Shown here in pieces: positions 5,671 to 62,861 of a DNA stretch of 64,000 nt; the first letter of the stretch is position 1, and each line of letters opens with the position of its first letter. The stretch covers positions 248,001 through 312,000 of the forward strand of contig NZ_CP095492.1 in the NCBI RefSeq assembly GCF_023028105.1, given 5' to 3'. This DNA is from Halosolutus gelatinilyticus (GTDB taxonomy: Archaea > Halobacteriota > Halobacteria > Halobacteriales > Natrialbaceae). The notes below the pieces were generated by a model that made no database searches, was not told the DNA's origin, and saw nothing but the letters and a program-made list of their open reading frames with translations. The translations under genes were made by a program, and so were the position numbers.

Positions 5671-6438
5671 ATGGAAGGGGACGAAACCGACGGGCGTTCC
5701 ATCAAATCTGACGAGACTCTGTTCGCTATCATCGAATCCCTCCGGGAAACCGGCGACGCGGGGGTGACGGAACTGGCGGACAGGCTCGACCTGGCCAAGA
5801 GCACGGTGCACAAACACCTCGTTAGCCTTGAGCGACACAGGTACGTCGTCAACGAGGACGGCCGGTATCGGCTCGGCCTGCAGTTTTTCAACGATGGTAT
5901 CTCCGTTCGGAACCAGTACGAGGTCTACCACGCGGCGAAGGAGCGGATCGATCAGCTGGCCTACGATGTCGACGAAACCGTGTGGCTCATCGTCCCCGAA
6001 AACGGGATGGGGATGTTCGTCTACGGGGTTCCGCGGAACGAGTCGTTTTCGTTCGACTCGACGATCGGGAGGTGGGTTCCGCTCCACGCGAACTCGGCGG
6101 GCAAAGCGATGCTGGCGCACCTGCCGGAACGCGAGGTCGAAGACATCGTCGACCGACGCGGGCTCCCGGCGCGAACCGAGAACACGATCACCGACCGAAC
6201 TGCGCTGTTCGAGGAACTCGAACGAGTCCGGGAACGGGGCTATGCAGTGAACTTCCAAGAGGACTTGCGTGGGTTACACGCTCTCGCGGTGCCGGTAATC
6301 CGGTCCGAGAGACCGATCGCGGCGGTGGCGATCGCCGGAGCCGCAAACCGGGTCACGGAGGAGCGGATCGAAGCGGAGCTCTCCGAACCGCTGCTCGAGG
6401 CCGTCGATGACATCGAGCTCCGCCTCGTGTACGGGTAG
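5671..6438 (+). CDS. IclR-family transcriptional regulator
   Basis: 255 residues from ATG 5671. The N-terminal winged helix-turn-helix (about 10-75) includes ELADRLDLAKSTVHKHL and a wing ending in GRYRLGLQF. The C-terminal IclR effector domain (about 85-250) has the usual W.PLHANSAGKAMLAHLP core and a GLHALAVPV strand near the end. IclR proteins bind DNA as dimers or tetramers and sense small organic, often aromatic, acids. It lies at the left edge of the aromatic-acid block and is the likely regulator of genes to its right. The frame extends upstream to 5575 but an AT-rich promoter-like tract lies there. Confidence 0.9.
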   Translation: MEGDETDGRSIKSDETLFAIIESLRETGDAGVTELADRLDLAKSTVHKHLVSLERHRYVVNEDGRYRLGLQFFNDGISVRNQYEVYHAAKERIDQLAYDVDETVWLIVPENGMGMFVYGVPRNESFSFDSTIGRWVPLHANSAGKAMLAHLPEREVEDIVDRRGLPARTENTITDRTALFEELERVRERGYAVNFQEDLRGLHALAVPVIRSERPIAAVAIAGAANRVTEERIEAELSEPLLEAVDDIELRLVYG

Positions 6439-6459
6439 CCGACGCCCCTTCACCGCCGC

Positions 6460-7311
6460 TCATCCGAGCAGATTCGGACGGATCGCGAGCAACAGCGCGA
6501 CGGCGAACGGATACGTGGCGGCGATCAACACGAGGACGGCGCGATCGGTCGGGTACCGACGGCGGAGACAGAGCAGCAAGGCACCGACGGGGAACGCGCC
6601 CGCGAGCGCGGCCCGCCGGGGGAGGACGCCGAGACTGCTTGCGAGCACCACCAGCGAGGCGCCAGCGGCGACGAGGGTCCAGGCGACCAGTGGGGCGCGG
6701 TCCCGCCCGAGGACGACCGGTACCGTCCGCTTCGAGACGAGCCGGTCGTGGCGATAATCGAGGAGGTCGAGGAGGACGCCGATTCCCGCCAGCTGCACGA
6801 CGAACGCCAGCGCGACGGCGGCGACCGCCGGGGAGACCGTGCCGGTTTGCGTCGCGTACCCGCCCGCCGTCGCGAGGCCGATCCCGAGCGGGTAATCCGC
6901 GGTCGACGTGACGGGGTTCGCGTCCAGGTAGGGCGCGTGGAGCAGCCCGAGACCGACCAGCGGCGCGGTGAGCGCGACCGGGGCGAGTCCGGCGATCGTC
7001 CAAAGGAGGCCGACCGCAACGGCGAACGCGGCGATGGCGGCGACGATCGCGATCCAAATCTCGGCCGGCTCGAGCGGATTGCGGCCGTCCTCGCTCCTGA
7101 CGTAGTAATCGACGTAGCCGTCCTTGAGGTGGGCCACGTACACGGCGAGGCCGACCGCGAGCGCGTGGACCGCGGCGGTCTCGCCGGTCGGATCGTCCGC
7201 GAGGAGCGCCCCGAACGCGGACACGGCCGGGGCGGGGACGAGGAATATCGGCTGCACGTGCACCCCGAGCCCTCGAGCGATCCTGCGATACCGACGCGAG
7301 CGTTCGGACAC
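6460..7311 (-). CDS. UbiA-family prenyltransferase-like membrane protein
   Basis: 283 residues with GTG start at 7311. Seven to nine hydrophobic segments span most of the length. Two Asp-rich motifs face each other as in UbiA enzymes: HLKDGYVDYYVRSEDGRN near residues 61-78, and DLLDYRHDRLVSKRTVPVVLG around 180-200. The family transfers prenyl groups to aromatic or glycerol acceptors in the membrane using Mg2+. The first motif departs from the common NxxxDxxxD form, so the acceptor is unclear. It is convergent with the IclR gene and divergent from the CoA ligase. Confidence 0.75.
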   Translation of the reverse strand: MSERSRRYRRIARGLGVHVQPIFLVPAPAVSAFGALLADDPTGETAAVHALAVGLAVYVAHLKDGYVDYYVRSEDGRNPLEPAEIWIAIVAAIAAFAVAVGLLWTIAGLAPVALTAPLVGLGLLHAPYLDANPVTSTADYPLGIGLATAGGYATQTGTVSPAVAAVALAFVVQLAGIGVLLDLLDYRHDRLVSKRTVPVVLGRDRAPLVAWTLVAAGASLVVLASSLGVLPRRAALAGAFPVGALLLCLRRRYPTDRAVLVLIAATYPFAVALLLAIRPNLLG

Positions 7312-7481
7312 GCCGCTTCGTACGGCGGCGCCCGCCTTATATCGGTCGCGTTTCGTCTCGCGCCGGTCGACTCGCCCTGCCCCGATCGACGCGAGTCCCC
7401 GACGGAAATCGATCGCCGCTCCGCCGTATCATAATCATTAATACCCTCGGTAGCCGGTCACACACATAGGCGACGTGACCG

Positions 7482-9768: not shown

Positions 9769-11160
9769 ATGGCCGTGACGAGCCTATTCGACCCGAGCGG
9801 AATCGCCGTCGTGGGGGCCTCGGAGACGCCCGGAAAGATCGGATACGAAGCGATGCGGAACGCGATCGAGTTCGACGGGCCGGTCTACCCGGTCAATCCG
9901 TCGGCGTCGGGAACGGTATTCGATCGGGAGTTCGTCCCCTCGGTGACCGACGTCGGCGACGACGTCGACCTCGCCCTGCTGTGCGTGCCGGCGCCGATCG
10001 TTCCGGACGTCATCGAGGAATGCGGCGAAGCCGGGATCGGCGGCGCGGTAATCTTCGCCGGCGGCTTCGCCGAGGCGGGCGAGGACGGAGAGCGGTTGCA
10101 AGGGCGGCTCGTCGAGGCCGCGATCGAGGGCGACGTCCACGTCCTCGGGCCGAACACGAGCGGGTTTCTGCGCCCGGCCGATCGTCTCTACGCGACGTTC
10201 GCCACGGACGTCGACGCGATCCCCTCGGGGAACGTGGCGATCGTCGCCCAGAGCGGCGGGCTCGCGTACGCCCTCGCGTTCCGAGCGGAGAACGAAGGGC
10301 GCGGCGTCTCCGCGATGGTCGGCCTCGGCAACCGGGCCACCGTCGGCTTCCGGGAGGCGGTCGAGCACTTCGATGCGGACGAGCGGACCGACGCGATCCT
10401 GCTGCACGTCGAGGGGACGGACGACGCGCGGGGTCTCCTCGAAACCTGTCGCGCGGCGGGGACGCCGATCGTCGCCTACAACGTCGGCGAGCAGGACGTG
10501 GGCGACTTCGCCGAGTCCCACACCGGCGCGCTGACCGGCCGGTACGAGCTGTACGAGGCCGGATTCGCCCAGTACGGCGTCCCGACCGTCCGCTCGGTCG
10601 CCGAGTTGCTGGACGCCGGGACGGCGCTCGCGTCCTGCCCCCGGCCCGACGGTCCGAACGTCGGCGTCGTCACCGCGCAGGCCGGTCCCGGGATCGCCAT
10701 CGCGGACCGCCTGAAGGCCGCCGGGGCGGAGTTGCCGACGCTCACGGCGGAGACCCGAGAGATCGTCGAGGAGCTCCTGCCCGGCATGACGTACTCGGCG
10801 AATCCGGTCGACACGGGCCGGCCGATGCCCGAATTCGGGCAGATTGTCGACGCCGTCGCGCGCGACGAGAACGTCGACGTCGCGCTCGTCTACGAACTGT
10901 ACGAGGGGGCCATCGGCTACCCGATCGACGCCCTCGAGGGGCTCGTGGCCGAGGTCGACAAGCCGATCGTCTTCGCGACCGGCGGCCCCAAAGCCGTGGT
11001 ACGGAACGAACTCGCGGAGATCGAGGCGCTCGGGATCCCGACCTACCGGACGCCGGAGCGGGGGGCGGACGCGGCCGCGGCCCTCGTCCGGTACGCGCTG
11101 CGAAACCGGGAGCCGGAGGCAGTCGCCGGCGGGGACGAGGAGGTGCAGGCGGATGACTGA
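9769..11160 (+). CDS. ADP-forming acyl-CoA synthetase, alpha (CoA-binding/ligase) subunit
   Basis: 463 residues. It begins with a CoA-binding Rossmann domain (SLFDPSGIAVVGASETPGK, about 1-130), followed by two succinyl-CoA-ligase-like domains. SHTGALTGRYELYEAG (about 248-263) contains the His that is phosphorylated in this family. These enzymes convert acyl-CoA + ADP + Pi to acid + ATP, and also run in reverse. The beta subunit follows with an 8-nt overlap. A role in recovering ATP from acyl- or aryl-CoA intermediates would fit the neighbourhood. Confidence 0.9.
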   Translation: MAVTSLFDPSGIAVVGASETPGKIGYEAMRNAIEFDGPVYPVNPSASGTVFDREFVPSVTDVGDDVDLALLCVPAPIVPDVIEECGEAGIGGAVIFAGGFAEAGEDGERLQGRLVEAAIEGDVHVLGPNTSGFLRPADRLYATFATDVDAIPSGNVAIVAQSGGLAYALAFRAENEGRGVSAMVGLGNRATVGFREAVEHFDADERTDAILLHVEGTDDARGLLETCRAAGTPIVAYNVGEQDVGDFAESHTGALTGRYELYEAGFAQYGVPTVRSVAELLDAGTALASCPRPDGPNVGVVTAQAGPGIAIADRLKAAGAELPTLTAETREIVEELLPGMTYSANPVDTGRPMPEFGQIVDAVARDENVDVALVYELYEGAIGYPIDALEGLVAEVDKPIVFATGGPKAVVRNELAEIEALGIPTYRTPERGADAAAALVRYALRNREPEAVAGGDEEVQADD

Positions 11161-11878
11161 GACCGATCCGGCCGGCGCGCGGGACCCTATTCAGGCTGCA
11201 CTGGCGGACGGCCGCACCGCACTGACCGAGTCCGAGGCCAAGGGGCTAATCGCCGATCGCGGTCTCCCGGTGCCGGGCGGCGAGACGGTCGGCTCGGCCG
11301 ACGACGCCGTCGAAGCGGCCGCCCGTCTCGGCTACCCGGTCGTCGTCAAGGTCGCCTCGCCGACGATCCAGCACAAGAGCGAGTGGGCCGACGGTGCCGG
11401 CGTGGCCGTCGGACTCGACGACGCCGGCTCGGTTCGGGCGGCTGCGACGCGGATCTTCGAGGCCGCGGCCGATCGGGGTATCGACGCGGCGGCCCTCGTC
11501 GAGGAGGGGCTCGACGTCGAGGCGGGACTCGAGGTGATCGTCGGCGGTGCGCGCGATCCGTCGTTCGGTCCGACCGTCCTCGTCGGCCTCGGCGGAATCA
11601 CCGTCGAGGTGCTGCGGGACGTCAGCCGGCGGATCGCCCCGGTCTCGACGGCCGAGGCCGTGGAGATGACTTGCGAACTCGAGGCGTCGCCGCTCTTCGA
11701 CGGCTACCGCGGCGCTCCCGCGGTCGACCGGACCGCGGTCGCGGAGGCGATCGTCACCGTCGGGGACCTGCTCGTCGAGCGCGAGGCGGTTCGGGAGGTC
11801 GAGGTCAACCCGCTGCTGGCGCGGTCGGACGGGGCGGTCGCGCTCGACGCGCTGGTCTCCCTCGAAGACGAGCCGTAA
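11153..11878 (+). CDS. ADP-forming acyl-CoA synthetase, beta (ATP-grasp) subunit
   Basis: 241 residues starting at ATG 11153 inside the end of the alpha gene; the longer frame from 10844 is a shadow. The ATP-grasp domain is seen in GYPVVVKVASPTIQHKSEWAD, with the nucleotide-binding Lys, then VGGARDPSFGPTVLVGLGG (phosphate/Mg loop) and EVEVNPLLA at the C-terminus. It binds ADP/ATP and exchanges phosphate with the alpha-subunit His. The pair forms the alpha2beta2-type ACD found in many archaea. Confidence 0.9.
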   Translation: MTETDPAGARDPIQAALADGRTALTESEAKGLIADRGLPVPGGETVGSADDAVEAAARLGYPVVVKVASPTIQHKSEWADGAGVAVGLDDAGSVRAAATRIFEAAADRGIDAAALVEEGLDVEAGLEVIVGGARDPSFGPTVLVGLGGITVEVLRDVSRRIAPVSTAEAVEMTCELEASPLFDGYRGAPAVDRTAVAEAIVTVGDLLVEREAVREVEVNPLLARSDGAVALDALVSLEDEP

Positions 11879-12991: not shown

Positions 12992-14071
12992 ATGGCACAG
13001 CAAGAGCCAGAGGAGCTCCTAGAACTGAGTTCCGACACGCGGAGTATCCTCGAGCAGAACGATCTCCGCCCGCTCTGGGAAGTGGAAGAAGAGATGGGAC
13101 ACCTCCTCGACGACCTCGAGCCGAACATCTGGAAGTGGGCGGACATCCAGGCCGCCATCGACGGCATCGAGGAGGACGTTCCGATCGCCGACCTTCCGCC
13201 GGGCTTCCAGCGGCGGGTCGCGGTCCCGATCAACGCGAAACACGCCGTCTCGAATACGATCTACGTCGGCGTCCAGACGGTCTCGCCCGGGGAAACCGCG
13301 CCGGCACACCGCCACGCCGCCAGCGCCCTGCGCTTTACCATCGACGGGCACGAGGACATGAAGACGGTCGTCGCCGGGGAGGAGTTCCCGATGAAGGACA
13401 ACGACCTTATCACGACGCCCCAGTGGGAGTGGCACGACCACGTCAACGACTCCGACGAGACCGCCGCGTGGCTCGACGTCCTGGACCTGCCGCTGTTCCT
13501 CGACACGCTGAACAACACCCACGTCTTCGAAAACCACGAACTCGAGCGCCAGCCGGTCACGAAGACGCAGGGGTACTGGGACTCCCAGTACGGCCGCGGC
13601 CGCCCCTCGAACGAGGAGAACGACGGCTCCATCCCCGGGCCGTTCCAGGGGACCAAGGAGCCGACGCCGCCGTACCGCTTCGGCTGGGACGAGATGCTCG
13701 AGTCGCTCCACCAGTACGCCGACAACGACGATCCCGACCCCTACGACGGGTACAGCCTCGCGTACGTCAACCCGGCCACGGGGGAGCCGCCGCTGTTCCC
13801 CACGATGTCCTTCCGCGCCCAGCTGCTGAACGACGGCCCGACGGACGCGCACTTCCACAACTCGACGGAGGTCTACTTCGTCATCGAGGGCGAAGGCGCA
13901 ACCCACGTCGACGGCGAGGCCCTGGAGTGGGACACGTGGGACCTCTTCGTCGTACCGCCGGACAGCCCGCACCACCACGAACCCGACGACGAGGCGATCC
14001 TGCTGGGCATGACCGATCGGCCGATCCTCGAGTCGATGAACTTCTACGCCGAGGCCGAGGTCTCCGAGTAA
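12992..14071 (+). CDS. Gentisate 1,2-dioxygenase-like bicupin protein
   Basis: 359 residues from ATG 12992. The first cupin (about 85-180) holds APAHRHAASALRFTIDG, matching the HxH...E metal-binding pattern of gentisate and 1-hydroxy-2-naphthoate dioxygenases, and a WEWHDHVN segment. The second cupin (about 270-350) has AHFHNSTEVYFVIEGEG and PPDSPHHHEP. The enzyme uses Fe(II) and O2 to open gentisate to maleylpyruvate. Its divergent partner is the FAH hydrolase and an FAD hydroxylase lies downstream, a typical gentisate set. An exact 41-base copy of its 3' end (14017-14057) occurs at 32093-32133. Confidence 0.9.
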   Translation: MAQQEPEELLELSSDTRSILEQNDLRPLWEVEEEMGHLLDDLEPNIWKWADIQAAIDGIEEDVPIADLPPGFQRRVAVPINAKHAVSNTIYVGVQTVSPGETAPAHRHAASALRFTIDGHEDMKTVVAGEEFPMKDNDLITTPQWEWHDHVNDSDETAAWLDVLDLPLFLDTLNNTHVFENHELERQPVTKTQGYWDSQYGRGRPSNEENDGSIPGPFQGTKEPTPPYRFGWDEMLESLHQYADNDDPDPYDGYSLAYVNPATGEPPLFPTMSFRAQLLNDGPTDAHFHNSTEVYFVIEGEGATHVDGEALEWDTWDLFVVPPDSPHHHEPDDEAILLGMTDRPILESMNFYAEAEVSE

Positions 14072-22870: not shown

Positions 22871-22877
22871 TTTATAG
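22869..22877 (+). promoter_or_regulatory. TATA-like box for the shortened alpha-subunit gene
   Basis: TGATTTATA lies about 24-32 nt before ATG 22901, supporting that start over GTG 22877. Confidence 0.45.
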
Positions 22878-22900
22878 TGCAATACTCGATTTATCACGGT

Positions 22901-23923
22901 ATGTGCCTATCCGATCTCTTTGATCCGGACGGGATCGCTGTCGTCGGCGCCTCGGCGACGCCGGGCAAACTCGGAAACGACGCGATGTCCAACGTCGAGG
23001 CCTACGACGGCGAGGTCTATCCCGTCAACCCCCTGGGTTCCGGGACCGTTTACGACTACGAGTTCATCGAGTCGATCGCCGAGACCGACGCTGATCTGGC
23101 ACTGTGTTGCGTGCCGCGTCACGTACAGCCGCAGGTCCTCGAGGAGTGCGGCGAGGCGGGCGTCGGCGCCGCCGTGATCTTCGCCGGCGGATTCGCTGAG
23201 ACGGACGGCGAGGGCCAGGAACTCCAGGACGAGATCGCGGCGATCGCTGACGAGTACAAGATTACCGTCCTCGGCCCGAACACGGCCGGGTACGCGATCC
23301 CGCAGGACGACCTGTACGGCTCGTTCATCCCTCGCATCCACGAGGTCGGGAGCGGGAACGTCGGGATCGCCGCGCAGAGCGCCGGCGTCGCAATCACCCT
23401 GTCGTTTCACCTGACCCGCGAAGGGTACGGCGTCTCGGCGATGTTCGGCCTCGGCAACCGGGTGCACACCGAGTTCGCGGACGTGATCCCGGCGCTCGAC
23501 GAGGATCCACGGACCGAGGCGATCGTCCTCCACGTCGAGGGGACGGTGGTCGTCGAGACCCTCCTCGCGGTCTGCCGGGAGGCCGAGACGCCGATCGTCG
23601 CGTACACGGTCGGCGAGCACGATGTCGCCGACGCGCCCGCACTGGACGGCCCGAATGTCGACGCCGTCGCGCGCGACGAGAACGTCGACGTCGTCCTCGT
23701 CTACGAGATCTACGATGATTCCCTCGGCTACCCCGTCGACGAACTCGAGGCGCTCTCGGCGGATCTCGACAAGCCGATCCTCCTCACGGTCGCCGGACCG
23801 CACGAGGCGCTGCGGGAGGAGCGCGAGCGAATGGAGGCCTTCGGGATTCCGACGTTCGACACGCCCGAGCGCGGAGCTCGGGCCGTAGCCGCACTCATCA
23901 GATCGATCTCGGGAGGAGAGTGA
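22901..23923 (+). CDS. ADP-forming acyl-CoA synthetase alpha-like protein with internal deletion
   Basis: 340 residues against 463 in the paralogue at 9769. The CoA-binding domain (SDLFDPDGIAVVGASATPGK) and second domain align well. After PIVAYTVGEHDVADA the protein jumps to LDGPNVDAVARDENVDVV, losing about 110 residues including the SHTGA phospho-histidine loop. It therefore cannot carry out the phosphoryl-relay reaction and is a probable pseudogene, or at most a CoA-binding protein. A 38-base run at 23656-23693 is identical to 10845-10882 in the paralogue. No beta subunit follows. Confidence 0.8.
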   Translation: MCLSDLFDPDGIAVVGASATPGKLGNDAMSNVEAYDGEVYPVNPLGSGTVYDYEFIESIAETDADLALCCVPRHVQPQVLEECGEAGVGAAVIFAGGFAETDGEGQELQDEIAAIADEYKITVLGPNTAGYAIPQDDLYGSFIPRIHEVGSGNVGIAAQSAGVAITLSFHLTREGYGVSAMFGLGNRVHTEFADVIPALDEDPRTEAIVLHVEGTVVVETLLAVCREAETPIVAYTVGEHDVADAPALDGPNVDAVARDENVDVVLVYEIYDDSLGYPVDELEALSADLDKPILLTVAGPHEALREERERMEAFGIPTFDTPERGARAVAALIRSISGGE

Positions 23924-32084: not shown

Positions 32085-32092
32085 TCGCCCGT

Positions 32093-32133
32093 TCGGCCGA
32101 TCCTCGAGTCGATGAACTTCTACGCCGAGGCCG
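32093..32133 (+). repeat. Exact 41-base copy of the gentisate dioxygenase 3' end
   Basis: Bases 32093-32133 equal 14017-14057 without mismatch and encode RPILESMNFYAEA in the plus direction. Sequence differs immediately on both sides. This is a fragment of a second bicupin dioxygenase gene. Confidence 0.85.
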
Positions 32134-32146
32134 CGATCGCCGCGCC

Positions 32147-51086: not shown

Positions 51087-51449
51087 CTACTCGTCCGCGA
51101 CTACCTGGAAACGCCGTCCGTCGGGGTCTCTGAAGTTCGTGATCTGCCGGTCTGTCGCCTCCACCTCGTAGGGGCCGACGATCGAATCGACATCCTCGGC
51201 CTCGAGCTGCTCGGTCACTCCTTCAATATCGTCGACGGCGAACGCGATGTGGTTGATCCCGGGCACCTCTTCGCCTTCGACGGTGTGGATCTCGAAGATC
51301 GGACCGTCACCATCCGCCGGCTCGAGTTCTACGGATTCTCCGTGGTGTTCCGTCGTTCGAAGCTCTTCGTACCCTAACTTCTTCAAAAAATTTGTCATCT
51401 CGTCCGCGTCACTAACCTCGATTTCGATGTGATCTATCTCTCCTATCAT
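51087..51449 (-). CDS. VOC-superfamily (glyoxalase/extradiol-type) protein
   Basis: 120 residues. Two beta-alpha-beta-beta-beta modules, the first starting IDHIEIEVSDADEM and the second INHIAFAVDDIEGV, ending with NFRDPDGRRFQVV. Candidate metal ligands are His7, Glu/His around the module ends and His near 67. One-domain VOC proteins include methylmalonyl-CoA epimerases, glyoxalases and lactoylglutathione lyases. Its partner aldolase suggests carbonyl-compound handling; function otherwise unknown. Confidence 0.82.
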   Translation of the reverse strand: MIGEIDHIEIEVSDADEMTNFLKKLGYEELRTTEHHGESVELEPADGDGPIFEIHTVEGEEVPGINHIAFAVDDIEGVTEQLEAEDVDSIVGPYEVEATDRQITNFRDPDGRRFQVVADE

Positions 51450-53176: not shown

Positions 53177-54733
53177 ATGCATCACACTTCAACACCCGAA
53201 GTTCCGGCGATAAAGGACCTCTCGAGTATCGCCGCGAAGAACAATCCCGACAAGACCGCGTTCGGCAACGGGCTCGACGGTCGAACGGTGACGTGGAACA
53301 AGTTCGATACGCAAAGCAAACAGGCCGCGAACGCCTTCAACGAACGGCTCGGTCAAGGCGATCGAGTGGCGTTCCTCTGCGAGAACTCCCTCGAGCACGC
53401 GACGCTCTGGAACGGAGCGCTCAAGGCGGGCTGTACGGTCTCGAACCTTCACACTCGTGCCTCGCCGAATACGCTCGAGTACTGCATCGATACGATTAGA
53501 CCGCGAGCGCTCGTCGTCGACGAGGAGACGTCGGGGTTCTTCGAGGAACGCGTACGGGAGAAGATCTCGACCGACCTCGATCTCGTCGCCAATGTCGGCG
53601 ACGCGCGGGCTGAGTACGAGCGATCGTTCGACTCGTTTCTCGCCGATCAATCGACCACTGAACCCGACGTACGGATCCGCGAAGACGACATCGCCGCGGT
53701 GATGTGGACGTCGGGGACGACGGGGAAGCCAAAGGGTTGGTGTCACACGAACCGGGGACTGTACTCTAGGGCGACGACGCTCGTCAGCGTCTACGACGTT
53801 AATCGGTCGGCGCGACAACCGCACGTCTTCACCCCCTCGTTTGCGGCGTGGTACTCGGTCATGCTGCCAGCGCTCGCGTCCGGCGCGACCACCTACTTCC
53901 TCGACTCGTGGGACCCGGAGACGTATCTTCGGATGATCGACGAACACGAGATGACGACTGCGCTCTTGGTTCCCACGATGTGGCGGGAGATTCTCAACCT
54001 CGATTCGTTCGACGAATATGACGTGAGTTCCCTCCGGGTGATCACGTCGGCAGGAGAGGTGCTCGACGCGACGACGCTCGAGCGGTTGCGCGAGAACATC
54101 TGTGACGTCGTCCGAAACTCGTACGCGGCAACCGAGGCATATGCCACCGTGATGACGAATGATGAACTCGAGGAGGGTCGCATCGAGAGCGTCGGCAAAC
54201 CGGTCCCCGGAGTACAGATCCGGATCGTAGACCGAGACGGGAGCTACGAGGACGTGAAACCGACCGGTGAAAGAGGCGAAATCGCCATTAAAGCCCCCGA
54301 TTGTCCGGTTTGGGCGTGGTCACGGACCGAAAAGACCGAGCGGGTCTTCGAAGACGGCTGGTGGTACTCCGGGGATGTCGGCTACCGAGACGAGGAGGGC
54401 TTCCTCTACCTCGAAGGCCGAACTGACTTCCAGATCATGTCGAAAGGGATCAAGGTGTATCCGTCCCCCATCGAGGAGCGACTGAACGCGCATCCCAGCG
54501 TAGAGGAATCCGCGGTCGTCGGCGTTGAGGACGAAAAATACGGTGAAAAGGTTACTGCATACGTCCATCCGTCGGATCCGGAGCTCACGGCGGTGGAACT
54601 AGACGAGTGGTGCCTCGAGAGCGACGAGATTGCTCGGATGGAGCGACCACGAACGTACCACTTTGTAGACGAATCGCTACCGCGGACTGCGACGGGCAAA
54701 CTCGATCGACGAAGCGCGAAGAACCTGAAGTAA
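53177..54733 (+). CDS. AMP-forming acyl/aryl-CoA ligase
   Basis: 518 residues. A3 motif WTSGTTGKPKGWCHTN, A5 NSYAATEAYATVM, A7 WWYSGDVGYRDEEGFLYLEGR and A10 LPRTATGKLDRRSA with the catalytic Lys. It is placed directly before the tandem demethylases on the same strand. Two readings are possible: an aromatic-acid CoA ligase in a methoxy-aromatic route, or a DmdB-like methylmercaptopropionate-CoA ligase in a dimethylsulfoniopropionate (DMSP) demethylation route. Sequence alone does not decide. Confidence 0.88.
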   Translation: MHHTSTPEVPAIKDLSSIAAKNNPDKTAFGNGLDGRTVTWNKFDTQSKQAANAFNERLGQGDRVAFLCENSLEHATLWNGALKAGCTVSNLHTRASPNTLEYCIDTIRPRALVVDEETSGFFEERVREKISTDLDLVANVGDARAEYERSFDSFLADQSTTEPDVRIREDDIAAVMWTSGTTGKPKGWCHTNRGLYSRATTLVSVYDVNRSARQPHVFTPSFAAWYSVMLPALASGATTYFLDSWDPETYLRMIDEHEMTTALLVPTMWREILNLDSFDEYDVSSLRVITSAGEVLDATTLERLRENICDVVRNSYAATEAYATVMTNDELEEGRIESVGKPVPGVQIRIVDRDGSYEDVKPTGERGEIAIKAPDCPVWAWSRTEKTERVFEDGWWYSGDVGYRDEEGFLYLEGRTDFQIMSKGIKVYPSPIEERLNAHPSVEESAVVGVEDEKYGEKVTAYVHPSDPELTAVELDEWCLESDEIARMERPRTYHFVDESLPRTATGKLDRRSAKNLK

Positions 54734-54840: not shown

Positions 54841-54847
54841 TTATAAG
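54841..54847 (+). promoter_or_regulatory. TATA box for the first demethylase gene
   Basis: TTATAAG lies 36-42 nt before ATG 54883, giving a short leader and excluding the GTG at 54847 as start. Confidence 0.5.
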
Positions 54848-54882: not shown

Positions 54883-56238
54883 ATGAGTAACGAGAGAGCA
54901 TGGTCCTTTAGCGACAGTATGGAAGAAGCGGCGCAAGCCGCCGGAAGCCCCGTCGATCTGATGCGCGACCTGGGCGTCGGCAAATTCACGAAGGTTCCCG
55001 ACGAGATCACTCACTGGATCGAGGAACAGCGGTCCTGGCGGGAAACGTGTGCGTTCGCCGACCAGTCGTATCACATGACCGATCACTACGTGGAAGGACC
55101 GGACGCAGTCGACTTCTACTCGGAGTACGGCGTCAACAACTTCGAGACGTCCGAACCCGGGAAGGCCAAACAGCTCGTGGTCGCGAACCCCAACGGCTAC
55201 TTCATCGGTGACGCCATTCTCTTCCACTTGGACGACGACGAATTCCTCAGCGTCGGCGGTGCGGCCGCTCACAACTGGCTCCAGTACCACATCGAGACGG
55301 GCGACTACGACGTCTCAGGCGAAATTCAGCCCCGACCCGTCGCGACCGGCGAGGACCCGAACAATTTCCGGTTCCAGGTGCAGGGGCCGGAAGCGATCAA
55401 GATCATGGAAGAGGTGACGGACGAACCCCTGCCCGAGATCGGCTTCTTCAACTTCGAGCCGGCCTCGATCGGCGGGCACGACGTCAATCTCCTGCGCCAC
55501 GGGATGGCGGGCGAACCCGGCTTCGAGTTTTGGGGCCCGTACGAGTACGGCGATGAGGTCAAGGATATCGTCCTCGACGCTGGCGAGGAGTACGGTATCC
55601 GACATCTCGGTGCCGAGAGTTACCAGACGCCGAATAAAATCCTGGGCTGGATTCCCCTCGTCGTTCCCGCGATCTTTGAGGAGGAACTGCAGGACTATCG
55701 CGAGTGGCTGGATGTCGGCCAGGGCCTTCTCTCGATCGGGGGCAGCTTCGAGTCGGACGATATCACGGACTACTACTTCACCCCAACCGAACTCGGCTAC
55801 GGCCACATCATCAACTTCGATCAAGACTTCGTGGGGAAGGAACCCCTCGAGAAGGAAGTCGGGGATCCTGACCGCGAGAAGGTGACGCTGGTCTGGAACG
55901 ATGAGGACGTCATCGATGTCTTTGCCTCGCTGTTCAGCGAGGGCGAGACGTACAAGTTCATGGAGTTCCCGCATCCGCGTTCGTCTGCCTGCCAGTACAA
56001 TAAAGTACTGAAAGACGGCAACCACGTCGGCGTTTCGACGGAGCAGGGCTACATCTACAACCAGCGTGAGTTGCTCTCGCTCGCGGTCGTGGACACGGAA
56101 TACAGTGACCCGGGTACCGAAGTCTCGCTCATCTGGGGAGAACCCGAGGACAACACCAATCCGAAGGTCGAACGCCACGCCCAAACGGAGATCCGTGCGA
56201 CCGTCGCCCCCTCTCCGTACAGCGAGGACAACCGATAG
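54883..56238 (+). CDS. GcvT/LigM-like tetrahydrofolate-dependent demethylase 1
   Basis: 451 residues from ATG 54883. The aminomethyltransferase fold is shown by an N-terminal ADQSYHMTDHYVEGPDAVDF segment, the central RFQVQGPEAIKIMEEVTDE block, LRHGMAGEPGFEFWGPYE and a C-terminal barrel (GKEPLEKEV...KVTLVWNDEDV). Length is near that of vanillate/3-O-methylgallate demethylase LigM (about 470) and above DMSP demethylase DmdA (about 370). Both families move a methyl group to tetrahydrofolate. A 159-base stretch at 55378-55536 is almost identical to the next gene. Own promoter; likely coregulated with the upstream ligase. Confidence 0.85.
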   Translation: MSNERAWSFSDSMEEAAQAAGSPVDLMRDLGVGKFTKVPDEITHWIEEQRSWRETCAFADQSYHMTDHYVEGPDAVDFYSEYGVNNFETSEPGKAKQLVVANPNGYFIGDAILFHLDDDEFLSVGGAAAHNWLQYHIETGDYDVSGEIQPRPVATGEDPNNFRFQVQGPEAIKIMEEVTDEPLPEIGFFNFEPASIGGHDVNLLRHGMAGEPGFEFWGPYEYGDEVKDIVLDAGEEYGIRHLGAESYQTPNKILGWIPLVVPAIFEEELQDYREWLDVGQGLLSIGGSFESDDITDYYFTPTELGYGHIINFDQDFVGKEPLEKEVGDPDREKVTLVWNDEDVIDVFASLFSEGETYKFMEFPHPRSSACQYNKVLKDGNHVGVSTEQGYIYNQRELLSLAVVDTEYSDPGTEVSLIWGEPEDNTNPKVERHAQTEIRATVAPSPYSEDNR

Positions 56239-56470
56239 ACAATGGGACTCGGCCCGGCAGCATAGTATGAAGCAGCAGTTTCCCCGGTACTCGACTCGTA
56301 CGCCACCGTTTCGCGGGCCAGATATCGAAGTCACAACCGGCGATGCGGATCATCGCCGTTCGTAACGAGCGACATAACGCAAGGTGTCTGCTCCGACTCG
56401 TGATATAATCCGCTCACGGCGAGCGCTTCGTTTTCGTCCTTGATCCGTGAAGAATCGTTCCGAGAGGAAC

Positions 56471-56480
56471 GCTTATTTGG
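56471..56480 (+). promoter_or_regulatory. TATA-like box for the second demethylase gene
   Basis: GCTTATTTGG lies 33-42 nt before ATG 56513. Confidence 0.35.
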
Positions 56481-56512
56481 AGGGGTGGCAATGTCTCGCA
56501 TGTAGTAAGATC

Positions 56513-57862
56513 ATGCACGAGCAAAGCCTAGAGGACGTGGTACGGGACGCAGAGTCCCCTGTCGATCTGCTCAGAACGCTGGAGGGAGGCGCGTTCGGAT
56601 TCCCGGTCGTTTCCGACGAGTATACCCACTGGATCGAGGAACAACGAGCGTGGAAGGAGAGTTGCGCGTTCGCAGACCAATCACACCACATGGTCGATAT
56701 GTGGGTCACGGGACCGGACGTGTTCGAGGCTTTCACCGACTACGCCGTCAATGACTTCGATAACTTCACAGTGGGACAAGCCAAACAGTTGGTCGTTTGT
56801 AACCCAGACGGATACTTCATTGGCGACGGAATCCTGCTTCGTCTCGACGAGGACGAACTCGCTTTCGTCGGTCCACCGCAAGCGCCCAACTGGCTCCAGT
56901 TCAACATCGAAGCTGGCGACTACGACGTGACCGTCGAACGCGACGAGACGTCGGGCGTTCGAGACGGCCCGCCGACGAACTTCCGATACCAAGTGCAGGG
57001 GCCGGAAGCGATCAAGATCATGGAAGAGGTGACGGACGAACCCCTGCCCGAGATCGGCTTCTTCAACTTCGAGTCGGCCTCGATCGGCGGGCACGACGTC
57101 GATCTCCTGCGCCACGGGATGGCGGGCGAACCCGGCTTCGAGTTTTGGGGCGACTGGAAGGACAGCGACGAGGTCAGAGAGACAGTACTCGAAGCCGGCG
57201 AGGAGTACGGTATCCGTCGGTTGGGATCGAAGAGCTACGGCAGTTCGTCGGTCATCTCTGGCTGGGTCGGGATGCCGCTGGCCGCTATCTACGACGGCGG
57301 AGCGATGCGGGAGTATCGGGAGTGGTTGAGCGCCCGCAGTCTCGAGGCCAACTACTCGATCGCCGGGAGCTTCGAGTCGGATGACATCACGGACTACTAC
57401 CTCACGCCGGTCGAACTCGGCTACGGACGACTCATCGATTTCGATCGCAACTTCGTCGGGCGCGAGGCGCTCGAGGAAGAGGTTGAGGACCCCAGTCGCC
57501 GACTCGTAACCCTCGAGTGGAACGCCGAGGACGTGATCGATGTCTTTGGTTCCCTGTTCACGGAGGGTTCCACGGAGAAATTCTTGGATTTCCCGGTTCC
57601 GTGGCGGTCGGCCGCACACTACGACGCGGTACTGAACGGGACAGATACCGTTGGCGTGTCGATGTGGGCTGCGTATACGTACAACGAACGGGCAATGCTC
57701 TCGTTGGCCGTCGTCGATACCGATCTCAGCGAACCCGGTACCGAGCTCACGCTCGTCTGGGGCGAGCCGGATGATGCGTCGAGTACGCACATCGAGCGTC
57801 ACGAACGGACGGAAATCAGCGTCACCGTCGCACCGGTTCCCTACACCGATGATCGACGGTGA
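56513..57862 (+). CDS. GcvT/LigM-like tetrahydrofolate-dependent demethylase 2
   Basis: 449 residues from ATG 56513; upstream codons from 56447 are Cys- and Arg-rich and lie in the promoter. Same domain order as demethylase 1: ADQSHHMVDMWVTGPDVFEA, then the shared VQGPEAIKIMEEVTDEPLPE block, LRHGMAGEPGFEFWG and a C-terminal barrel ending in TLVWGEPDDAS. Outside the shared block the two proteins are clearly divergent, pointing to different substrates or positions (for example different methoxy groups). A 2-hydroxyacid dehydrogenase gene follows. Confidence 0.85.
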   Translation: MHEQSLEDVVRDAESPVDLLRTLEGGAFGFPVVSDEYTHWIEEQRAWKESCAFADQSHHMVDMWVTGPDVFEAFTDYAVNDFDNFTVGQAKQLVVCNPDGYFIGDGILLRLDEDELAFVGPPQAPNWLQFNIEAGDYDVTVERDETSGVRDGPPTNFRYQVQGPEAIKIMEEVTDEPLPEIGFFNFESASIGGHDVDLLRHGMAGEPGFEFWGDWKDSDEVRETVLEAGEEYGIRRLGSKSYGSSSVISGWVGMPLAAIYDGGAMREYREWLSARSLEANYSIAGSFESDDITDYYLTPVELGYGRLIDFDRNFVGREALEEEVEDPSRRLVTLEWNAEDVIDVFGSLFTEGSTEKFLDFPVPWRSAAHYDAVLNGTDTVGVSMWAAYTYNERAMLSLAVVDTDLSEPGTELTLVWGEPDDASSTHIERHERTEISVTVAPVPYTDDRR

Positions 57863-57936: not shown

Positions 57937-58893
57937 GTGACTCGAGCTATCATCGACCAAGACATTACACCGACATCGCGGCTGACGGAGCAGCTACCGG
58001 ACGCATGGAACGTGATCGAAGGAATCGATATCGAACAGCCAGCACTGGGGGCAACGATCGAGACGGCCGACATCGCATTCGTTACCTCTCGCGTCCCCCT
58101 CTCTCGTAAGGTGATCCAGAGCGCCCCGGAGCTGGATGTGATCGCGAAGCTGGGAACCGGCATCGATTCGATCGATATCGAAGCGGCCGCCGAGTGTGGC
58201 GTCACGGTTACTCATACGCCGGGACACAACGCGCTCTCGGTGGCGGAACACACCGTCGGATTGACCCTCGCAACGCTGCGCCGACTGACGGAAGCGCGCC
58301 GTCTCATCGAATGCGATGCGTGGCGCGACGAGTACTCGCTCGGCTCTCGGCTCTTCGGGTCGACCATCGGTATCGTCGGATTCGGCAATGTCGGAAAGCG
58401 AGTCGGGACCCTCCTCTCGGGTTTCGACGTCGATCTCCTCGCTCACGATCCCTACGTGCATGATATCGATAGCGAACTGGTAGGTGCGAGCATGGTCTCG
58501 CTCGAAGATCTCCTCGAACAGAGCGACGTCGTCATGCTGACGACGGAACTGACCGACGAGACTTGTGGGATGATCGGTAAGAGGGAACTCGATTGCATGA
58601 AACCGTCCGCCGTGCTCATCAATACGGCTCGCGGACCCGTCGTCCGTAACGGTGCGCTTGTAGACGCACTCCGGTCGGGTTCGATCGCAGGGGCCGGTTT
58701 GGATGTCTTTGCCGAGGAACCGGTTGACTCGACCGCCGAGTGGCTGGAGTTCGACAACGTCGTTGCGACGCCACACATCTCTGCGATGACGCTCGAGAGT
58801 CGACGGGAGGGGATCGATCGGCTTGCGACGAACACAAAGCGACTCCTCGCAGGAAGGCCGGTCAACGAGCGCTACGTCGCGACGTCGCCTTGA
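57937..58893 (+). CDS. D-isomer-specific 2-hydroxyacid dehydrogenase
   Basis: 318 residues with GTG start at 57937. Catalytic/NAD features: LGTGIDSIDIEAAAECGV, Rossmann motif GIVGFGNVGKRVG with a downstream Asp (AHDPY), Arg in NTARGPVVRNGAL, Glu in DVFAEEPV and His in VATPHISAMT. The family (phosphoglycerate, glyoxylate, hydroxypyruvate dehydrogenases) reduces 2-oxo acids with NAD(P)H. Downstream of the demethylases on the same strand. It may process a C2/C3 acid or serine-derived C1 donor, which is speculative. Confidence 0.9.
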   Translation: MTRAIIDQDITPTSRLTEQLPDAWNVIEGIDIEQPALGATIETADIAFVTSRVPLSRKVIQSAPELDVIAKLGTGIDSIDIEAAAECGVTVTHTPGHNALSVAEHTVGLTLATLRRLTEARRLIECDAWRDEYSLGSRLFGSTIGIVGFGNVGKRVGTLLSGFDVDLLAHDPYVHDIDSELVGASMVSLEDLLEQSDVVMLTTELTDETCGMIGKRELDCMKPSAVLINTARGPVVRNGALVDALRSGSIAGAGLDVFAEEPVDSTAEWLEFDNVVATPHISAMTLESRREGIDRLATNTKRLLAGRPVNERYVATSP

Positions 58894-62639: not shown

Positions 62640-62861
62640 AGGCGGGTTAATGTTTTCGGGAGTATCGATACGCGTACACTCGATTCCGACGTCAGCACAG
62701 GCCTGCTGTTTTATCGAGACGTACGTCTCGCTCGCGTCGTCGTTCGTGAGAACGGTCGCTAGCCCCGGCATTACGCCGACGCCTCCGAGCGTCTCGATGC
62801 TCGCTGTCAGTTGCCGTTTGATGCGATCTCTGATATCGTCGCCGTCAATGACGTGGATCAT
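62640..62861 (-). pseudogene. folD: Truncated folD (methylenetetrahydrofolate dehydrogenase/cyclohydrolase), N-terminal part
   Basis: From ATG 62861, MIHVIDGDDIRDRIKRQL, then GLATVLTNDDASETYVSIKQ and CADVGIECTRIDTPEN match the first 70 residues of FolD, including the catalytic Tyr and Lys of YVSIKQ. The remaining roughly 220 residues (NADP domain) are absent and the frame continues without a stop into livG. FolD converts methylene- to formyl-tetrahydrofolate, so its presence beside folate-dependent demethylases is meaningful even as a remnant. Confidence 0.75.

Follow-up and report, generated by a model that had tools for sequence, protein, structure and literature searches.

Evidence for a short ectopic gene conversion tract between diverged O-demethylase-like paralogues of a haloarchaeon

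In archaea, homogenisation of a patch between two paralogues with the flanks of the recipient left untouched is described for mtrA-1 and mtrA-2 (PMC4632066; survey PMC6053082), and the archaeal cases in the available text of that survey are all from methanogens. The available part of PMC8223754 reports patches of several hundred nucleotides and presents short patches in connection with concerted evolution of bacteria. Among haloarchaea, the polyploid Haloferax volcanii has a highly efficient machinery for intermolecular gene conversion (PMC8223754, PMC11276520), which, in the available parts of these papers, acts between genome copies, with co-conversion nearly complete at 600 bp and still above 30% at 4-5 kbp. 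Here, we describe a block shared by two neighbouring genes in a 64,000-nucleotide stretch of the Halosolutus gelatinilyticus genome ("the window", whose first base is position 1), which resembles the mtrA case in its homogenised patch with untouched recipient flanks and the Haloferax process in its haloarchaeal host. Whereas mtrA-type cases, as the available text presents them, keep whole domains homogeneous over time, the window holds a single 159-nt patch in genes that are otherwise about 64% identical; and unlike the conversion described for Haloferax volcanii, its tract is ectopic, short and situated between diverged genes. A literature search for conversion in haloarchaeal O-demethylases returned no report that we recognised.

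Two paralogous demethylase-like genes and their surroundings

The two genes, referred to here as A (54883..56238, + strand) and B (56513..57862, + strand), encode GcvT-fold proteins. The frame of A is open from a GTG at 54847, with the ATG at 54883 the more likely start, while that of B is open from a GTG at 56447, with the ATG at 56513 a possible start. Both proteins belong to Pfam family GCV_T, scoring 136.6 and 124.9 bits against a gathering score of 25.6, and LigM structures match both over their full length (E 1e-104 to 6e-113). They are alike in this full-length homology to the tetrahydrofolate-dependent aromatic O-demethylases LigM and DesA, but differ from the corresponding equivalogs in that neither reaches the NCBIfam cut-offs of 800 bits for DesA (A, 477.5; B, 514.2) and 580 bits for LigM (A, 416.3; B, 476.9). 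Judged from their sequences, A and B are LigM/DesA-like and presumably tetrahydrofolate-dependent O-demethylases.

The surrounding cluster, with genes for an HpcH/HpaI aldolase, a VOC protein, a thioesterase, an acyl-CoA synthetase and a D-2-hydroxyacid dehydrogenase, is shared with a plasmid of Halostagnicola larsenii, on which folD, folP, aminodeoxychorismate/anthranilate synthase and methylenetetrahydrofolate reductase genes come next; this gene content fits a folate-linked one-carbon role for the cluster. The AMP-binding acyl-CoA synthetase gene (53177..54733, + strand) is kept upstream of A in both H. larsenii and Halobellus limi, and the D-2-hydroxyacid dehydrogenase gene (57937..58893, + strand) directly follows A in both. 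Of these three loci, the window alone has B between A and the dehydrogenase gene: H. larsenii lacks B, and in H. limi three genes separate A from B.

The original prediction spoke of tandem demethylases, a description that holds for the arrangement in the window but not in the sense of a recent tandem duplication. In a tree built from the sequence outside the block described below, all 12 A genes fall into one clade and all 9 B genes into another (both 100/100), and Halobellus keeps both genes, one in each clade; A and B, adjacent in the window, are thus ancient paralogues, and recent duplication is ruled out. The A orthologue on the H. larsenii plasmid is 85% identical in amino acids, and the B orthologues of Halobellus are 63-68% identical. 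With one genome sampled per species and at the threshold used, 3 of 125 Natrialbaceae genomes contain the family, which is present twice only in the genome of the window, and two genomes of the same genus contain no member. Since the family is rare in Natrialbaceae and plasmid-borne in H. larsenii and H. limi, horizontal movement is likely.

Other repeats were also observed. The - strand carries, at 62646-62849, the beginning of a truncated folD (47 bits to PF00763, positions 1-69), which shares the reading frame of an ABC-transporter ATPase and lies immediately upstream of it. An intact folD follows about 4.4 kb to the right (G000:C2:315257-315601); the fragment, about 70% identical to this gene, is thus an old remnant. 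The VOC/glyoxalase-family gene at 51093-51443 has a second copy, 82% identical and ungapped, about 15 kb away and beyond the window (approximately 66214-66564 in window numbering). A 54-nt repeat (32089-32142 and 14013-14066, 93% identical) consists of the 3' end of a cupin gene, which we take to be gentisate dioxygenase-like, recurring after a regulator gene, presumably of the IclR type; the repeated end is probably a gene remnant. Finally, 22877-23923 is a shorter paralogue, without the central part, of the gene at 9769-11160 (CoA-ligase-like, we assume), and is perhaps an internally deleted copy.

A sharp-edged block of near identity

Codon alignment of A and B places a block of 159 nucleotides, or 53 codons within the GCV_T domain, at 55378..55536 in A and 56993..57151 in B (both + strand). 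These coordinates, as originally predicted, are exact to the base, the copies differing immediately outside at 55377/56992 and 55537/57152. Also borne out were the count of just two differences inside the block (157 of 159 bases matching, with all 53 third positions identical) and the divergence of the flanks, third codon positions included. Identity is about 62% on either side, with 148/240 bases and 38/80 third positions shared 5' of the block, and 146/231 bases and 39/77 third positions shared 3' of it. Where both genes use a degenerate codon for the same amino acid, the codons are identical in 48 of 48 cases within the block as compared with 119 of 207 outside (Fisher p 1e-10), so synonymous sites have been homogenised. 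If up to two mismatches are allowed, the longest matching stretch covers 53 codons; the maximum after codon shuffling was 24, and none of 20,000 shuffles reached 53. This is a discrete, sharp-edged block of raised identity beyond chance, as characterises an ectopic gene conversion tract.

Both remaining differences change the amino acid: C in A and T in B at 55460 (Pro/Ser), and A in A and G in B at 55487 (Asn/Asp). The genome contains no third copy of the block, its next DNA match there being 28 bases long. The longest exact run shared by the two genes outside the tract, 20 nt at 55582..55601 (+ strand), lies 45 bases to its right and is possibly a tiny second patch or a chance match within a conserved motif.

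Origin and direction of the shared block

If each copy were closer to its own orthologues than to the other copy, the original prediction of gene conversion would fail. Instead, the block of B reaches an identity of 0.987 with A; its identity with the four nearest A orthologues is 0.80-0.82, and with eight B orthologues 0.69-0.74. The flanks of B are 0.62-0.66 identical to those four and 0.68-0.74 to the B orthologues. Compared with all seven A orthologues, B gives 0.58-0.64 before the block, 0.72-0.82 within it and 0.62-0.66 after it, whereas the block of A, at 0.73-0.83, is about as similar to them as its flanks are; the block of B has this same A-like profile. That it is no less like the B orthologues than the B flanks are reflects a region conserved between A and B anyway. 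In three other A/B pairs 0.69-0.75 of this region is identical, from which we infer that some 40-49 differences were probably erased.

Phylogenetic analysis places the recipient copy, an A-type sequence in a B-type gene, differently from the rest of B. Outside the block B groups with the B orthologues, and a tree uniting A and B of the window is rejected (p-AU 3e-42). Inside it, at the DNA level, these two are sisters (100/98) in a group containing the four nearest A orthologues (89/94), and a placement of B among its own orthologues is rejected (p-AU 0.025, or 0.010 when the long row YIMB is left out; 0.013 with a second DNA row set), so that the trees inside and outside conflict as expected of conversion. 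In the protein block, of only 53 columns, the AU test does not reject B with its orthologues (p 0.16).

The original prediction had allowed that strong nucleotide-level constraint, such as an RNA structure, a regulatory site or codon constraint, holds the copies identical. The block does encode a conserved part of GCV_T, and two of the three other A/B pairs are more alike there (0.74-0.75) than over the rest of the genes (0.63-0.64), but the third, from Halobacteriales archaeon YIM A00010, is not (0.69 versus 0.70). Moreover, third positions in the block agree at only 0.51-0.70 between A and its seven orthologues and 0.45-0.58 between B and its eight, a divergence that excludes such constraint to near certainty. 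It is very improbable that the block is an assembly or polishing artefact: although our basis is the assembled sequence of one strain, two differences persist inside the block, an unconverted B, at about 70-75% identity to A, would be too distant for mis-mapped reads, and a comparable tract occurs in the unrelated assembly of YIM A00010. Entry of the block into both genes, or into B, from another strain or a plasmid might be expected of a family so rare in Natrialbaceae and plasmid-borne in two relatives, but among 391 genomes searched no other contains a block closer than 84%, and the absence of synonymous differences from the resident A makes an outside donor unnecessary; we consider this source quite unlikely.

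These identities, together with the third-position divergence among orthologues, support the earlier reading, and short ectopic gene conversion between A and B is very probably the explanation. The opposite direction, with B donating the block to A, is not rejected by the AU test for the protein block (p 0.43) and for the second DNA row set, which is without the A orthologues G036, G289 and G274 (p 0.19), but rejected in the first, which includes the nearest A orthologues (p 0.017). It is also at odds with the grouping of the window copies with four A orthologues and with the block of A itself, which is 0.80-0.83 identical to those four, much as its flanks are, and 0.69-0.75 to B orthologues. 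We therefore regard B as an unlikely donor and transfer from A to B as strongly favoured by identities and best trees, with AU support that is not unanimous.

At 55487, A and its seven orthologues all have an Asn codon, the window B has Asp, and the eight B orthologues have either Thr or Arg, a pattern indicating that B changed after copying; the ancestral state of Pro/Ser at 55460 cannot be assigned to either side. The idea that patchy repair or selection brought back B-type residues was considered and is unsupported: at these two codons B orthologues have Asp and Thr/Arg, the window B Ser and Asp. Given that no synonymous difference has accumulated since copying, the event was recent relative to the divergence of the genes.

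In the conversion from A to B, the template would have been 159 bases of A itself or of an almost identical allele of A carried by another copy of the genome, used during repair or recombination, presumably of the RadA type in a polyploid context. The A-derived bases would have replaced their counterpart in the adjacent ancient paralogue B, with A retaining its sequence. The tract probably has no functional consequence.

Loss of mismatch repair was considered as a permissive cause and found unsupported, with both MutS relatives and an open NucS gene present. A MutS_V search of the genome gave two strong and two weak matches. The NucS_C match runs over one stop, at which a 270-residue open frame ends, and many relatives' matches likewise cross one stop near the domain end; the NucS gene thus shows no sign of being broken. 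According to the available text of PMC5290159, loss of NucS raises homeologous recombination in Mycobacterium, and both systems occur together in 21 halobacterial species.

Recurrence and significance

Scanning 61 within-genome paralogue pairs from 15 genomes (YIM A00010 and all 14 in which at least two matches occurred, among them the genome of the window) revealed clear-cut tracts in two pairs, that of the window and the A/B pair from YIM A00010 (L038). The latter tract spans 237 nt with 11 mismatches, corresponding to gene A positions 55735-55971, with synonymous identities of 67/72 versus 118/194. It occupies a different place in the gene and is independent of the window tract, and the copies lie on opposite strands (B at 5959-7347, +; A at 10267-11646 on the - strand reading). 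Inside it the B clade is rejected (p-AU 0.011), as is joining the genes outside it (p-AU 8e-6); A is the donor in the best tree (95/94), with an AU p of 0.22 for B as donor. The synonymous-run test supported both pairs (0/5000 each). Two further pairs, G157 and G239, were flagged by windowed identity and then failed, the synonymous-run test being unsupportive. A demethylase pair in G080 (L023/L084), with a 180-nt stretch containing 25 mismatches (86% versus 63% overall), is possibly a weaker third candidate, perhaps an older tract, its support (0/2000) coming from the scan shuffles, which move codons and ignore regional amino-acid conservation.

That a second lineage has a tract of its own in this gene pair shows that these paralogues do exchange sequence. 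The event is of an ordinary, known kind in a slightly unusual setting, with diverged paralogues and a short tract, seen twice. The window tract records a recent conversion, for the most part polarised, between archaeal paralogues that have diverged strongly, and both tracts are useful for asking what minimum homology haloarchaeal recombination needs. Tree building, scans for selection and predictions of specificity in these demethylases should leave out the converted patches. More tentatively, haloarchaeal paralogues down to about 64% identity may recurrently exchange patches of about 150-240 nt, also across opposite strands, even though MutS relatives are present and the NucS gene looks intact; this generalisation is somewhat doubtful at present, but if it is true, catabolic paralogues on megaplasmids may commonly evolve as patchworks, which would lead gene trees inferred from them astray.
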